Positions 1 through 22,060 of a stretch of DNA of 64,000 nt are shown piece by piece (within the stretch, counting starts at the first letter, position 1; the number at the start of each line of letters is the position of its first letter). The stretch comes from Rhodococcus marinonascens NBRC 14363. Its GTDB lineage: Bacteria > Actinomycetota > Actinomycetes > Mycobacteriales > Mycobacteriaceae. The notes beneath the pieces are model-generated. The model had not been told where the DNA came from, searched no databases, and worked only from the letters and a program-made list of their open reading frames with translations. The DNA lies in contig NZ_BCXB01000003.1 in assembly GCF_001894885.1 (NCBI RefSeq), positions 1 through 64,000 on the forward strand, read 5' to 3'. The position numbers were made by a program, and so were the translations under genes.

Positions 1-37
1 TACGTTTCGGGGGATGCGGGATCGTTGCAGTCGGCAC
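1..37 (-). CDS. 5' end of an unidentified gene, cut by the window edge
   Basis: Only the first 12 codons are visible, on the minus strand, from a GTG at 37 down to the window edge. The evidence is a good ribosome binding site (GGAGAG, plus-strand positions 45-50) seven bases ahead of the GTG, and an open frame. It would follow the 71-397 gene in the same direction with a 33-base gap. No function can be assigned from so few residues. Confidence 0.3.
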   Translation of the reverse strand, partial: MPTATIPHPPKR

Positions 38-70
38 GTTCAGGCTCTCCAATTCAGCTGGCAAGCGGCT

Positions 71-397
71 TCAGCCGCTGCGGTTCAGGGTTGTCCACGC
101 GTCGGCGACGCGCAGAAATTCGTCCTCATCGGTGAGCCACCGCGGAGGTGCCTGTACCCCACCGTGATTCACCGGGTCAGTGGTCAGCCCGTAGCTTTCC
201 AGGGCATCAGCGATCGCGGCTGCCCTCACGGCAGGTGATTCGTCAGGATCGAGACCGGGGGCCGGCAGCCACGGGAGCAAGCGGAGAAGCGCATCTTCAC
301 ACTCGATGCGCATCCGATGCTCACGCTCGTTGCCGGCCAGATCCTCTGTCGACCCGAGCATCACGTCGGGAACGGCCGACGTGAGCACTCGCCACAT
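71..397 (-). CDS. small hypothetical protein (108 aa)
   Basis: I do not recognise this family. The protein is 108 residues from an ATG at 397, acidic, with predicted helical stretches (around residues 32-44 and 56-70) and a C-terminus rich in Asp, Glu and Trp. No signal peptide, membrane segment or cysteine motif is visible. The open frame continues upstream, but the upstream residues look like a shadow reading (Arg-rich, low complexity), so the ATG at 397 is preferred. No clear Shine-Dalgarno sequence precedes it. It is followed closely by the gene entering the window at position 37, so the two may be co-transcribed. Confidence 0.5.
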   Translation of the reverse strand: MWRVLTSAVPDVMLGSTEDLAGNEREHRMRIECEDALLRLLPWLPAPGLDPDESPAVRAAAIADALESYGLTTDPVNHGGVQAPPRWLTDEDEFLRVADAWTTLNRSG

Positions 398-9159: not shown

Positions 9160-11004
9160 CTACGGGACCTGACGGATCGCGCCCTTGTCGGCGGACGTCG
9201 CCAGCGCGGCGTAGGCGCGCAGTGCTGTGGTGACCGTGCGCTCACGATTGTGCGGCTGCCAAGGGCGCTCGGACGCCTCAATCTTGGCCCGGCGCTCGGC
9301 GAGTACGGCGTCGTCGACGAGGAGTTCGAGCTTGCGGGTCGCGATGTCGATGAGGATCTGGTCACCGTCCTCCACGAGGCCGATCGCGCCGCCGCTCGCG
9401 GCCTCGGGGGAGATATGGCCGATGGACAGGCCTGAGGAACCGCCGGAGAAACGGCCGTCCGTGATCAGTGCGCACTTCTTCCCGAGACCGGAACCCTTCA
9501 GGAATGCGGTGGGGTGCAGCATCTCCTGCATGCCGGGGCCGCCGGCGGGGCCCTCGTAGCGCACGACGAGCACGTCGCCGGGCTGAATCTTCTTGCCGAG
9601 GATGACGGACACCGCCTCCTCCTGCGACTCCACGACGCGCGCGGGTCCCTGGAAGTGGAACAGTTCCTCGTCGATGCCTGCGGTCTTGATGACCGCGCCG
9701 TTGACGGCTATGTTTCCACGGAGCACGGCCAGACCGCCCTCCGCCGTGTGCTTGTGCTCGAAGTCGCGGATGCATCCGTTCGCGGCGTCCGTGTCGAGGG
9801 ACGACCACCGGTTGTTCGTCGAGAACGGCTCGGTGGTCCGGACACCGCCGGGAGCGGCGTGGAAGAGTTCGACGGCCTCGTCGGATGCCTTGCCGGAGCG
9901 AATGTCCCACGTGTCGAGCCACTCGTCCATGCTTTTCGTATGGACGGTGGAGACGTCGCTCTCGAGCAGACCCGCGCGGCGGAGTTCACCGAGGATCGCG
10001 GGAATTCCGCCTGCCCGGTGCACGTCCTCCATGTGGTAATCGGAGTTGGGCGAGACCTTCGACAGGCACGGCACCTTTCGGCTGATCTCGTCGATCTTGG
10101 CGAGATCGAAGTCGTAGACCTCACCCTCCTGCGCTGCGGCGAGGGTGTGTAGCACCGTATTGGTGGAACCGCCCATCGCGACGTCCAAGGCCATCGCGTT
10201 GCGGAACGCGGCAGGGGTGGCGATGTTACGGGGGAGGACCGAGTCGTCGTCGTCCTGGTAATACCGAAGGGCGGCCTCGACGACGGTAGTGCCCGCGCGG
10301 GTGAACAGCGCACGCCGGGCCTCGTGGGTGGCGAGCGTGGACCCGTTGCCGGGCAACGCCAGACCGAGCGCCTCGGTGAGGCAGTTCATCGAGTTGGCGG
10401 TGAACATGCCCGAGCACGACCCGCACGTCGGGCACGCGCTGCGCTCGACCTCGGAAAGCCCGTCCTCGTCGACCTCATCGTTGGCGCTCGCCGAGATCGC
10501 GGTGATGAGGTCGGTCGGTGCCTGCGCGACGCCGCTGACTACGACGGCCTTGCCCGCTTCCATCGGCCCGCCCGAGACGAACACGGTGGGAACATTCAAA
10601 CGCATTGCAGCATTGAGCATTCCGGGCGTGATCTTGTCGCAGTTCGAGATGCACACGAGGGCGTCAGCGGTGTGCGCGTTGACCATGTACTCGACGGAGT
10701 CGGCGATGATCTCGCGGCTGGGAAGGGAATACAGCATGCCCCCGTGTCCCATCGCGATGCCGTCGTCAACCGCGATCGTGTGGAACTCCCGAGGTACACC
10801 ACCAGCGGCGCTCACGGCGTCGGCGACGATGTCGCCGACGTTCTTGAGATGGACGTGCCCGGGAACGAACTGCGTGTACGAGTTCGCGATCGCGACAATC
10901 GGCTTTCCGAAGTCGGAGTCGGTCATTCCGGTGGCGCGCCAAAGTGCGCGGGCGCCTGCGGCATTTCGTCCTACGGTGGTGGTTCGGGACCTCAGCGGGG
11001 GCAT
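9160..11004 (-). CDS. ilvD: dihydroxy-acid dehydratase
   Basis: Removes water from 2,3-dihydroxy-isovalerate and 2,3-dihydroxy-3-methylvalerate, the third shared step of valine and isoleucine synthesis; cytosolic iron-sulfur enzyme. 614 residues, full length. The cluster and metal motifs are clear: [11 protein letters not shown] (118-128) and [11 protein letters not shown] (191-201), plus the C-terminal [14 protein letters not shown] active-site loop. The ATG at 11004 has TAAGGA six to seven bases upstream. It follows the cfp6-like gene by 52 bases on the same strand and lies divergent from ilvBNC, so one locus holds ilvD, ilvB, ilvN and ilvC. In M. tuberculosis ilvD is elsewhere. Confidence 0.97.
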
Positions 11005-11056: not shown

Positions 11057-11569
11057 CTATTTGCCGTCAGTGTTCGGCTGGTTCCTCGCCGGACGCTCTC
11101 CATTAGATTCGGCATCGTGGGCAGCTTCCTCCGCCGCTGCGGCTGCCGCGTAGGGATCGGTGATGCGTCCGCCGCTAGCGGCGGCGATCTGGGGAAGTCT
11201 ATCGAAGGTAACCACGGGCAGGGAGACTTCGCTGCCGTCGATCAACGTGGCCCGCGCCCAACCGTGTTTGGGGAACCGGAACCCCGTGATCTGAGACCAC
11301 GACAGTGATCGGCCACCGATCAGTCTGCGCACAGCGAGTCCGTCGGGAGTGATGGTGGTGCGCACCCGCGCGACCCAGCCCACGGCAACGATCGGCGCGA
11401 TGACGAGCCAGCCGAAGGCGGCAGGCCAACCGAAGATGGGAAACGACACGGCGAACAGGAGAAACGCGCATCCCAGGTATGCCAGCGGAGAAATTCGGAT
11501 GACCTGACCGGGAGGGTTTGTCGTATGGGATGATGGTTGTGGTGGCACGGGTTGCTGTGAAGTCGACAC
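11057..11569 (-). CDS. cfp6: Cfp6-like membrane protein with PH-like domain
   Basis: 170 residues from a GTG at 11569. A short Pro/Ser/Gln-rich N-terminus is followed by two close hydrophobic segments (LAYLGCAFLLFAVSFPIFGW and a second ending near VAVGWVARV), then a small beta-rich domain (TTITPDGLAVRRLIGG, LSWSQITGFRFP) typical of the bacterial PH domain family that includes M. tuberculosis Cfp6 (Rv3004). The C-terminus is Ala/Glu-rich. Function is unknown. The frame stays open to a GTG at 11641, but the extra residues are Cys-rich and unlike the family. Its position next to ilvB on the opposite strand matches M. tuberculosis. Confidence 0.82.
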   Translation of the reverse strand: MSTSQQPVPPQPSSHTTNPPGQVIRISPLAYLGCAFLLFAVSFPIFGWPAAFGWLVIAPIVAVGWVARVRTTITPDGLAVRRLIGGRSLSWSQITGFRFPKHGWARATLIDGSEVSLPVVTFDRLPQIAAASGGRITDPYAAAAAAEEAAHDAESNGERPARNQPNTDGK

Positions 11570-11629
11570 CTCTACATCTTCGCACTGCAGCCGACATATC
11601 TTACATTCTGGGACGGACGACTCACCAAG

Positions 11630-11659
11630 TTGACTGTTCACGCATCACGCGCCTACCGT
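11630..11659 (+). promoter_or_regulatory. ilvBNC promoter
   Basis: TTGACT (11630-11635) and TACCGT (11654-11659) are 18 bases apart. The predicted transcript start, six to eight bases on, coincides with the GTG of the leader peptide at 11667, so the leader peptide would be read from a leaderless mRNA. Confidence 0.6.
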
Positions 11660-11666
11660 CGAGCGC

Positions 11667-11714
11667 GTGAGACAGAATGAGTTGCTCGTAATCGGCCGGC
11701 GCGTCGTCGCCTGA
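11667..11714 (+). CDS. ilv leader peptide (15 aa) of a transcription attenuator
   Basis: A 15-codon frame, GTG to TGA, whose codons spell Val-Arg-Gln-Asn-Glu-Leu-Leu-Val-Ile-Gly-Arg-Arg-Val-Val-Ala. After the start codon, six of fourteen residues are Leu, Val or Ile, the end products of the pathway controlled. It sits between the ilv promoter and an intrinsic terminator ahead of ilvB. Ribosome stalling at these codons when charged branched-chain tRNAs are scarce would be the sensing step, as established for ilvBNC of Corynebacterium glutamicum. The peptide itself has no expected function. Confidence 0.72.
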   Translation: MRQNELLVIGRRVVA

Positions 11715-11785
11715 GTCGATTTCTTCAACTCGCCAGATTAACGACGCGCCACCCTCGTACAGCATCAGCTGACGGGGGTTTTTTT
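11698..11785 (+). promoter_or_regulatory. ilvBNC attenuator (pause hairpin plus intrinsic terminator)
   Basis: Two structures follow the leader codons. GGCGCGTCGT (11698-11707), which covers the Arg-Val-Val codons, is perfectly complementary to 11741-11750. Directly after it, 11751-11763 pairs with 11768-11779: ACCCTCGT with ACGGGGGT (one G-U pair) and CAGC with GCTG around an ATCA loop, one A bulged, followed by seven Ts (11779-11785). That is a complete intrinsic terminator 31 bases before ilvB. A stalled ribosome would block the first pairing; I could not identify the antiterminator stem with confidence. Confidence 0.72.
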
Positions 11786-11816
11786 GTTGCCCGGAGCCAG
11801 AATCAGAGGATTTCCA

Positions 11817-13760
11817 GTGAGCGCACCAACCGCACGGCCTCAACCCACGCCGCGCAAGTCGGGACCAGCCAACCCGACTGCCGTGGCCGCCGCGACGCAG
11901 ACCGGTAGCCGCCGGCAACTCGCTCCTGAGCGCGTTACCGGCGCACAGTCCGTAGTTCGAGCCCTCGAGGAACTCGAGGTCGAAACCGTGTTCGGCATTC
12001 CGGGTGGGGCAGTTCTTCCTCTTTACGACCCACTCTTCGACTCGACGAGGGTTCGGCACGTCCTCGTTCGTCACGAGCAGGGGGGCGGACACGCTGCCAC
12101 CGGGTACGCCCAGGCGACGGGCAAGGTCGGCGTTTGCATGGCCACCTCCGGTCCGGGCGCTACCAACCTCGTGACGCCGCTCGCCGATGCGCAGATGGAC
12201 TCCGTTCCGGTGGTGGCCATTACCGGTCAGGTCGGGCGCCGCCTGATCGGCACAGATGCGTTCCAGGAAGCTGACATCTCCGGCATCACGATGCCGATCA
12301 CCAAGCACAACTTCCTGATCACCGATGCCATCGACATACCGCGGATCCTTGCGGAGGCTTTCTACCTCGCCTCCAGCGGCCGACCCGGCGCGGTGCTCGT
12401 CGACATCCCGAAGGACGTACTCCAGGCACAGACCACGTTCTCGTGGCCGCCGGAGATGCGGCTGCCCGGATACCGCCCCGTCACGAAGCCGCACGGCAAG
12501 CAGGTCCGCGAGGCCGCTCGCCTGATCGCCGATTCGCAGCACCCTGTGCTCTACGTCGGTGGTGGCGTGATCAAGTCGGGATCGTCCTCTGAGCTGCTGG
12601 AACTGGCTGAGCTCACAGGAATTCCGGTGGTCACCACCCTCATGGCGCGCGGTGCGTTTCCCGACAGCCACACGCTGAACTGCGGGATGCCGGGCATGCA
12701 CGGCACCGTCGCAGCGGTGGCTGCACTGCAGCGCAGCGATCTGCTGATCACGCTGGGCGCGCGCTTCGATGACCGCGTCACCGGGCAGCTCGATTCGTTC
12801 GCGACCGGCGCCAAGGTAATTCACGCCGACATCGACCCCGCGGAGATCGGCAAGAACCGCTATGCGGACGTCCCGATCGTGGGCGACTGCAAAGAGGTCA
12901 TCGTCGAGTTGATCGAGGCGATCAGGGCCGATCAGGCCACCGGGACCACGCTCGATCTCACCGAGTGGTGGGCCTACCTCGACGGGATCCGCCGGACGTA
13001 CCCGCTGAGCTACGACCGTCCCTCGGACGGCACGATGTCGCCGGAGTTCGTGATCCAGTCGGTGGGCAGGCTCGCCGGCCCGGACGCGATCTACTGCGCC
13101 GGCGTCGGTCAGCACCAGATGTGGGCGGCGCAGTTCATCAACTACGAGAAGCCGCGCACGTGGCTGAACTCCGGCGGTCTCGGCACGATGGGCTACGCCG
13201 TGCCCGCCGCCATGGGTGCCAAGATGGGCAAACCAGACATCGAGGTGTGGGCCGTCGACGGCGACGGCTGCTTCCAGATGACCAACCAGGAATTAGCCAC
13301 CTGCGCCGTCGAGGGCATCCCGATCAAGGTCGCCCTCATCAACAACGGCAACCTTGGCATGGTCCGCCAGTGGCAGACCCTGTTTTACGAGAAGCGTTAC
13401 TCCAACACCAACCTAGGCACTCATGGTGCGGTGCGCATCCCAGATTTCGTCAAACTGGCAGAGGCGTTGGGCTGTCACGGCATTCGTGTCGAGCGCGAGG
13501 AGGACGTCGAGGCGGCCATCCTCGAGGCGCAGTCGATCAACGACAAGCCGGTGGTGATCGACTTCATCGTCGGCGCCGACGCGCAGGTGTGGCCGATGGT
13601 CGCCGCGGGCACCAGCAACGACGAGATCATGGCGGCACGGGGCATCCGGCCGCTGTTCGACGACGACGAGGCGGCAGCGGAGCCGGCCGTCATTAACCAA
13701 GCGATGGAGCGCGAGCAGCGTTCGGGCGAGGCCGCAGCGGCCGAGGAGGAAGATCAGTGA
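11817..13760 (+). CDS. ilvB: acetolactate synthase large subunit
   Basis: Condenses two pyruvates, or pyruvate and 2-ketobutyrate, in the first shared step of Val/Leu/Ile synthesis; needs ThDP, FAD and Mg. 647 residues from the GTG at 11817, chosen because AGAGGA lies seven bases upstream. An Ala/Pro/Thr-rich N-terminal extension of about 40 residues precedes the catalytic core. The ThDP-activating Glu is in [16 protein letters not shown]; the ThDP/Mg motif runs from [14 protein letters not shown] to INNGN. The stop overlaps the ilvN start (GTGA), so the two subunits are translationally coupled. Expression is probably set by the attenuator upstream. Confidence 0.97.
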
Positions 13761-14260
13761 GCACCAGCCACACCCTCAGTGTTCTCGTCGAGGACAAGCC
13801 GGGCGTACTGGCCAGGGTTTCCGCGCTGTTTTCCCGTCGCGGGTTCAACATCGAGTCGCTCGCCGTCGGTGGCACCGAGCTTCCCGAGATCTCACGCATG
13901 ACGATTGTGGTGACAGTCGACGAGTTCCCACTCGAGCAGGTGACCAAGCAGCTGAACAAGCTCGTGAACGTCATCAAGATCGTCGAGCAGGACGGTGAGG
14001 CGTCAGTGGCCCGCGAGTTGCTACTCATCAAGGTGCGTGCCGACGCGAGCGTGCGCACTCAGGTGATAGAGGCAGTGAATCTGTTCCGCGCCAAGGTGAT
14101 CGACGTCTCCCCGGAGTCGGTCACGATAGAAGCGACTGGAACGCGATCCAAGTTGGATGCGCTGCTGAGAATGCTCGATCCGTACGGTATCCGGGAGATC
14201 GTGCAGTCTGGAGTCGTGGCGGTCGGGCGAGGACCGAAGTCCATCACCGCCACTCGCTAG
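13757..14260 (+). CDS. ilvN: acetolactate synthase regulatory small subunit
   Basis: Activates IlvB and gives it valine feedback inhibition. 167 residues: an N-terminal ACT domain (about 4-78, starting [20 protein letters not shown] and including [11 protein letters not shown]) and the C-terminal small-subunit domain (about 85-160). The start GTG overlaps the ilvB stop by four bases. ilvC follows after 38 bases in the same direction. Confidence 0.96.
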
Positions 14261-14295: not shown

Positions 14296-15312
<1,017 letters not shown>

Positions 15313-21838: not shown

Positions 21839-21910
21839 TGGGGTATGGTGTAATTGGCAACACAGCGGTTTCTGGTACCGCCATTCTAGGTTCGAGTCCT
21901 GGTACCCCAG
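21839..21910 (+). tRNA. tRNA-Gln (anticodon CTG)
   Basis: A 72-base cloverleaf. The acceptor stem TGGGGTA pairs with TACCCCA, the anticodon stem GCGGT/ACCGC carries the loop TTCTGGT, hence anticodon CTG, and the T arm has TTCGAGTCC. The discriminator base is G and CCA is not encoded. Confidence 0.95.
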
Positions 21911-21987: not shown

Positions 21988-22060
21988 GGCCCCGTCGTCT
22001 AGCGGCCTAGGACGCCGCCCTCTCAAGGCGGTAGCGCGGGTTCGAATCCCGTCGGGGCTA
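21988..22060 (+). tRNA. tRNA-Glu (anticodon CTC)
   Basis: A 73-base cloverleaf. The anticodon stem CCGCC/GGCGG has the loop CTCTCAA, hence anticodon CTC. The T arm has GGTTCGAATCCC and the acceptor ends in CGGGGCT plus discriminator A. CCA is not encoded. It lies 77 bases after tRNA-Gln. Confidence 0.95.

Follow-up and report, generated by a model that had tools for sequence, protein, structure and literature searches.

The window, the whole stretch of 64,000 nucleotides of Rhodococcus marinonascens NBRC 14363 DNA that was analysed, carries ilvB, ilvN and ilvC behind a short leader (Table 1). The three products pass their NCBIfam cut-offs, and the best named relatives of IlvB, in a comparison that may have omitted the record of the window itself, are Rhodococcus proteins (87% in the best segment). 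Promoter boxes, a GTG at the predicted transcript start, a 10-bp pairing and a terminator with seven Ts, all named in the original prediction, are read in the sequence ahead of ilvBNC, and the attenuator that it proposed there is supported by the leader frame, by covarying hairpins and by the NCBIfam-confirmed IlvB, IlvN and IlvC. The leader frame reads GTG AGA CAG AAT GAG TTG CTC GTA ATC GGC CGG CGC GTC GTC GCC TGA, and the terminator ACCCTCGT-A-CAGC-ATCA-GCTG-ACGGGGGT. Arms B and B' of the 10-bp pairing are perfectly complementary, and arm A of a further stem begins with the third base of the Val codon and takes in the Ile and Gly codons. The transcript is numbered with +1 at 11667.

The leader folds more stably than its dinucleotide shuffles (z = -3.25; 2 of 200 shuffles equally stable). 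Simple promoter and terminator scans of the leader region found neither a promoter nor a terminator; the -10 box matches TATAAT at three of six positions, and the terminator stem has a one-base bulge, which a simple terminator scan may not allow. On the minus strand a divergent ORF (11057-11641), whose longest reading begins within the ilvB promoter region, had no NCBIfam match at E 1e-10, and ilvD (9160-11004) is the next gene after it. Two tRNA genes identified by Rfam lie on the plus strand at 21839-21910 and 21988-22060.

Apart from tRNAs elsewhere in the window, an Rfam 15 search gave no family, and none at the leader at gathering level; one weak match near it (E 3.9) is on the opposite strand. 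Given this result, and since the leader ORF and the hairpins account for the elements seen, it is extremely improbable that a metabolite-binding riboswitch of the ppGpp class or a T-box stands here instead of a leader-peptide attenuator, even though the accessible text of PMC10272879 describes ppGpp riboswitches that control ilvB in some bacteria. The available part of Narunsky 2023 reports no structural response to ppGpp for the Corynebacterium ulcerans homologue.

Table 1. Features of the ilvBNC leader region and operon in the window
Feature	Position	Strand	Remarks
-35 box TTGACT	11630..11635	+	read in sequence
-10 box TACCGT	11654..11659	+	read in sequence; 18-nt spacer after -35, 7 nt before GTG
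Leader ORF VRQNELLVIGRRVVA + stop TGA (11712-11714)	11667..11714	+	15 codons; predicted leaderless; GTG is predicted +1
Likely control codons TTG CTC GTA ATC (Leu-Leu-Val-Ile)	11682..11693 (+16 to +27)	+	
Anti-antiterminator outer stem, 5' arm GAGTTG	11679..11684 (+13..18)	+	pairs with 11726-11731
Anti-antiterminator outer stem, 3' arm CAACTC	11726..11731 (+60..65)	+	
Anti-antiterminator inner stem, 5' arm A, AATCGGC	11690..11696 (+24..30)	+	covariation with 11715-11721
Anti-antiterminator inner stem, 3' arm A', GTCGATT	11715..11721 (+49..55)	+	directly after stop codon
Antiterminator 5' arm B, GGCGCGTCGT	11698..11707 (+32..41)	+	within Arg-Arg-Val-Val codons
Antiterminator 3' arm B', ACGACGCGCC	11741..11750 (+75..84)	+	ends directly before terminator
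Intrinsic terminator stem-loop	11751..11779	+	8 bp + bulged A + 4 bp, loop ATCA; RNAfold
Seven-T tract	11779..11785	+	first T also closes terminator stem
Shine-Dalgarno-like AGAGGA of ilvB	11805..11810	+	by eye
ilvB, acetolactate synthase large subunit	11817..13760	+	NCBIfam NF005860, 1149.6 bits
ilvN, acetolactate synthase small subunit	13757..14260	+	NCBIfam NF008864
ilvC, ketol-acid reductoisomerase	14299..15312	+	NCBIfam NF004017

Conservation of the leader and its control codons

An IlvB protein similarity search found a match in all 61 genomes, and in the 30 loci fetched from it the leader frame, which the prediction expected to persist in close relatives, is kept without exception (19 distinct leaders, aligned). 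The -35 element of these loci is TTGAC in 20 and TTTGCC at the same position in 10, and a TANNNT box lies 6-7 nt upstream of the leader start in every one. R1, a covariance model built from the leaders of these loci, has a match at E 0.01 in 351 of 401 family genomes. Eighteen of the 20 listed among its 50 misses come from one genus, presumed to be Corynebacterium because of the leader that its matching members carry, in which there are four listed matches (one false by eye) and at least 18 misses. A search by protein similarity gave 80 named loci, and the leader is matched at 79 of them, which include Nocardia, Gordonia, Williamsia, Tsukamurella, Mycobacterium, Amycolatopsis, Prauserella, Saccharothrix and Streptomyces; the sole exception is the second ilvB-like locus of R. 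koreensis. Although no Rfam 15 family covers the leader, a broader model, R2, built from 39 diverse leaders, matches 230 of 393 class genomes sampled at 90% completeness or more, in 81 of 123 genera; R1 alone matches 36 of 296 in a different class sample with no completeness filter. Both models have a linker of zero between the last two hairpins built in, so that their matches are biased. Second, weak R1 matches in three genomes, G179, G189 and G379 (E 3e-4 to 6e-3), may be additional module copies or may have arisen by chance.

A wider family set comprised 145 loci, of which 142 had the control motif, L138, L181 and L187 being dropped as lacking it by pattern. The leader frame is kept in 141 of these 142, beginning with GTG in 116 and ATG in 25. 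From the end of the TANNNT box to the start codon there are 6 nt in 16 leaders, 7 nt in 105 and 8 nt in 20, and within 0 to 17 nt of the start no other spacing occurs in the 141. This measurement was not blind, as starts with TANNNT 4-10 nt upstream were accepted and the one nearest to 7 taken; within the accepted range only 6-8 nt occurred. The family-wide spacing, together with mapped starts in Corynebacterium and Streptomyces lividans, indicates that the Rhodococcus leader is very probably leaderless, so that the predicted leader peptide made without a ribosome binding site gains support, from promoter spacing and relatives rather than from a Rhodococcus transcript. Such a peptide is not new in kind, having been published for Corynebacterium and S. 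lividans. Morbach and colleagues, by the title of their paper of 2000, reportedly described how a leader peptide forms at the ilvBNC operon of C. glutamicum in the absence of a ribosome binding site. In the sections available of the respective papers, a single nucleotide separates the C. glutamicum ilvBNC +1 from the start codon position (PMC11857589), the C. diphtheriae transcript starts at the leader's start position (PMC5784534) and IlvL of S. lividans is termed leaderless from RNA-seq (PMC8079986).

A Leu-Leu-Val-Ile-like block is kept in relatives, and the control codons are likely to be the Leu-Leu-Val-Ile codons of Table 1, with the rare GTA as Val codon. Among the Val codons of long GC3-rich ORFs in the window, GTA accounts for 5.6%; of 142 leaders, 141 have it at the control site, a count favoured by the search pattern, which allowed CTCGTA, CTTGTA, CTAGTA or CTCGTG. 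In three genomes from two families of the class the module lies upstream of a relative of citramalate synthase (L291, L312 and L338), and there the control codons are Ile-Ile (ATT ATT) in place of GTA, in keeping with the product of the citramalate synthase pathway. The best NCBIfam for all three downstream proteins is TIGR00977, which they match below the whole-protein cut-off, having been scored as partial proteins of 310, 122 and 119 aa. One genome, G425, has both the citramalate synthase copy (L312) and an ilvB copy with GTA (L311). A literature search for a citramalate synthase attenuator found none by title.

Alternative pairings in the leader RNA

The original prediction drew the 10-bp pairing over the Val-Val codons, saw no evident antiterminator and allowed that the leader might depart from the three-hairpin scheme. 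The terminal Val-Val codons do lie inside that stem, the probable antiterminator stem, the likely control codons being instead Leu-Leu-Val-Ile. The doubt about the scheme is not upheld, because B:B' is most likely itself the antiterminator, a homologue of that of C. glutamicum, and because a separate, covarying anti-antiterminator pairs the control codons with bases just past the stop codon; with these two, the three-hairpin scheme applies. Its inner stem, A:A', crosses B:B'. We folded seven transcript prefixes from +65 to +83, and in all of them the anti-antiterminator is the minimum-energy fold (-21.7 kcal/mol at +65, -23.2 kcal/mol from +68), with B buried inside; the B:B' antiterminator takes over from +86. 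A weak stem extension between leader bases +7 to +29 and the 5' arm of the terminator is present in prefixes +89 to +110 and gone at +113.

The A:A' pairing is better between cognate arms than between permuted ones at every level examined. Across the family the cognate mean is -8.38 kcal/mol against -7.52 for permuted arms (sd 0.15; 117 distinct pairs; none of 1000 permutations as good), between 41 classes of A it is -6.88 against -5.94 (sd 0.31; 0/1000), and class-wide, over 57 distinct pairs, -6.14 against -4.95 (sd 0.26; 0/2000). The outer stem behaves likewise (86 distinct pairs; 0/500). Arms that differ in sequence remain matched, as in L023 (AATCGGC/GCCGGTT), L137 (GTACTCGG/CCGAGTAC), Amycolatopsis L238 (TACTTCC/GGAAGTA), L290 (CTTCCG/CGGAAG) and L139, with a run of about 10 pairs. 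When A:A' is counted strictly, at seven positions in the 15-codon leaders, the excess is small, 71.4% of cells pairing against 68.9% when permuted (sd 0.6; 0/2000), which suggests that the element drifts in register and that some leaders retain little of it; in some it barely pairs, and in Streptomyces L256 it reaches only -4.2.

For B:B' and the terminator, 95.2% of cells are paired, and 12 of 22 pairs are changed on both sides (6 of 10 in B:B', 6 of 12 in the terminator stem), a level reached in none of 500 shuffles; these counts were made on an alignment, A5, that had been fitted to the model. The 19 near relatives alone give a weak result, 101 of 500 shuffles being as high; it is the diverse set that carries the signal. 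In seven of 61 class loci (L317, L320, L321, L323, L329, L330 and L340) the stop codon falls at or before B, and B:B' is still kept, which argues that B is an RNA element and not a by-product of the Arg-Arg-Val codons. Ten class rows had been flagged for this arrangement, of which L306, L324 and L338 were excluded by eye as wrong frames; L336, which looks like an eighth case, was left out of the count.

These results weigh against the view that the terminator is fixed and constitutive, that the conserved leader encodes a self-acting peptide and that the pairing merely follows from conserved codons. The peptide LVIGRRV is indeed well conserved among family leaders, the antiterminator and the terminator mostly have no bases in common, and codon substitutions before S. 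coelicolor ilvB were reportedly without effect (Seliverstov 2005, from its accessible text), an observation that also counts against our mechanism. Against this, both B:B' and A:A' covary, B is not peptide-coding at the seven loci just named, and codon swaps abolish regulation in relatives (PMC11857589 and PMC13236596, available portions); we therefore regard a constitutive terminator as highly unlikely.

The 10-bp stem was at first taken for a protector, and an antiterminator overlapping the terminator was sought by eye instead. The candidates joined the loop to the 3' arm, the stop-codon region to the terminator, or leader CTCGTA to the 3' arm of the terminator; none looked strong or kept in relatives, and none occurs in the printed folds. 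It is nevertheless conceivable, if unlikely, that a base-overlapping antiterminator was missed, for example between the loop of the 10-bp hairpin and the terminator's 3' arm, the kind of pairing drawn for C. ulcerans, where Narunsky 2023, in the part available, joins the right shoulder of the terminator to the P1 loop. By eye, CAACTCGCC can pair with GGGGGTT with one bulge. In relatives, L023 for instance, this pairing appears weak by eye, it is absent from all printed folds, and the loop stretch should fall outside the footprint of a ribosome at the stop codon, so that it would pair when amino acids are plentiful.

Junction between antiterminator and terminator

Mutual exclusion of antiterminator and terminator through shared bases was not found in the window. 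Position 11750 is the last of B' and 11751 the first of the terminator, with 0 nt between the two elements and no shared base, and because no base is common to both, RNAfold holds the two helices together in one structure (-47.2 kcal/mol). Base pairing alone therefore does not make them mutually exclusive. In joint folds of the 142 family leaders, 123 have a linker of 0 nt and 12 one of 1 nt; four have 2 or 3 nt, one has 21 nt, and two show no separate helix; the hairpin upstream of the terminator spans 39 to 70 nt in 136 leaders and 14-34 nt in four atypical folds. With each helix found separately, so that negative values denote overlap, the linker is 0 in 101, -1 in 20 and +1 in 13, which puts 134 of 142 within 1 nt; four leaders have -2 or -3 and another four have 3 to 10. 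On this measure 24 of 142 leaders overlap by 1-3 nt. The junction is likewise within 1 nt at 71 of the 79 named protein-found loci with a leader and at 51 of 61 class loci, or 45 of 58 with other terminator windows, figures that depend on how the base of the terminator is called. In Streptomyces and Amycolatopsis it is within 1 nt too, despite a differing sequence. At several of the larger gaps, L309 and L316 among them, the base of the terminator was, by eye, missing from the local fold. The boundary shifts with sequence, and a gap rarely opens.

One family locus, L182 (genome G073, genus g44), is of a different make: its leader frame and -10 box seem lost, so that it was dropped from the spacing count for want of a start with a -10 box, and its B:B' is lengthened to 16 bp (GGCCCGTCCAACATCG / TGATGTTGGACGGGCT), 5 nt from the terminator. 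It may be an attenuator that has given up its leader peptide.

At termination, the RNA at the base of a terminator sits inside the exit channel of RNA polymerase. Since that RNA lies within the channel, a closed B:B' helix immediately upstream should hinder zipping of the terminator base there, and antitermination may work in this way. We tentatively extend this idea to a general proposal, which we regard as possible though rather doubtful: across Actinomycetes the ilvB attenuator would switch by abutment, a closed helix that has no linker to the terminator, and usually no base in common with it, being unable to enter the exit channel, and the module would be portable, as the Ile-Ile version before citramalate synthase suggests. 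A literature search for antitermination by abutting helices returned nothing of the kind by title among the matches listed. If abutment and not strand competition switches the terminator, the shared-strand logic of the textbooks is not the sole route, and terminator predictors would need to examine what lies directly upstream.

Proposed mechanism and comparison with known attenuators

The leader combines codons for the products of the operon, an intrinsic terminator before the first gene and alternative pairings, B:B' and A:A', whose availability could depend on where the ribosome stands. We propose, with considerable confidence, that transcription of ilvBNC is attenuated here in a translation-dependent way, by means of a leaderless leader peptide and three hairpins. 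RNA polymerase would start at or next to the GTG, and a ribosome would load on the bare 5' end of the transcript. When the leader is not translated, the anti-antiterminator (+13 to +65), being the first long hairpin, would bury B, and the terminator would form (OFF). When branched-chain amino acids are scarce, the ribosome would wait at the Leu-Leu-GTA-Ile codons and cover the 5' arms of the anti-antiterminator, leaving B, or at least the larger part of it, free for B' so that the antiterminator forms (ON). When they are plentiful, the ribosome would reach the stop codon and cover B, neither alternative would form, and the terminator would again prevail (OFF). B:B' fits the ON state because B must be free, which holds for a ribosome at the control codons and not for one on the stop codon. 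The transcript start and the ribosome positions in this scheme are predicted, and the ON and OFF states are assigned by analogy with tested relatives. In the ordinary reading, the sensor would be elongation over the control codons; the original prediction suggested that initiation itself could depend on 70S or charged-tRNA state.

ilvB attenuation has been tested in C. glutamicum and in M. tuberculosis, according to the available text of two papers. In C. glutamicum, a change of the start codon lowers expression by 80%, and Val-to-Ala codons abolish the response to valine (PMC11857589). Combined with the predicted anti-antiterminator, that drop suggests that loss of translation should be an OFF state in Rhodococcus too. 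In M. tuberculosis ilvB1, changing LVVI to AAAA abolishes induction, and read-through needs the LVVI codons (PMC13236596).

The closest counterpart is the ilvBNC attenuator of C. glutamicum (ilvL; the ilvB-II motif of Narunsky 2023, available part), which likewise has a leaderless 15-codon leader rich in Val, Leu and Ile, a GTA control codon and three hairpins (anti-antiterminator, antiterminator and terminator) with ilvBNC downstream, and to which the model of Ryabchenko et al. 2025 (PMC11857589), in its accessible sections, assigns the same roles. Its leader sequence is distant from that of Rhodococcus, and its antiterminator and terminator share a GCC trinucleotide, whereas in Rhodococcus they abut and share no base. 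Against the ilvB-II motif, in which P1 is formed from leader codons and P2 is the terminator, the Rhodococcus layout is the same and the sequence and junction differ. The ilvB1 uORF of M. tuberculosis has the same kind of leader with branched-chain amino acid codons, intrinsic terminator, codon-dependent read-through and operon; its control codons are LVVI, and the accessible portion of PMC13236596 describes two exclusive folds and no anti-antiterminator. S. lividans IlvL is likewise a leaderless leader, MRTRILVLGKRVG, ahead of ilvBHC (PMC8079986, available part). By eye, all four named Streptomyces loci encode the MRTRILVLGKRVG peptide, and B' abuts the terminator there (0 nt); Streptomyces differs in its shorter leader, in its -10 sequence (by eye) and in the weak A:A' of L256, the only one tested.

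In mycobacteria, polycysteine leaderless uORF attenuators are said, by Canestrari and colleagues in 2020, to sense an amino acid with a short leaderless ORF through the speed of the ribosome. They concern other operons and another amino acid, and the review passage available names translation of downstream genes, not an intrinsic terminator. The accessible texts of PMC3388012, PMC4974804 and PMC11133741 do not describe an ilvB attenuator in Rhodococcus. Our results place Rhodococcus among the leaderless ilvB attenuators and provide a three-hairpin map outside Corynebacterium, where the available parts of the literature cited here draw none.
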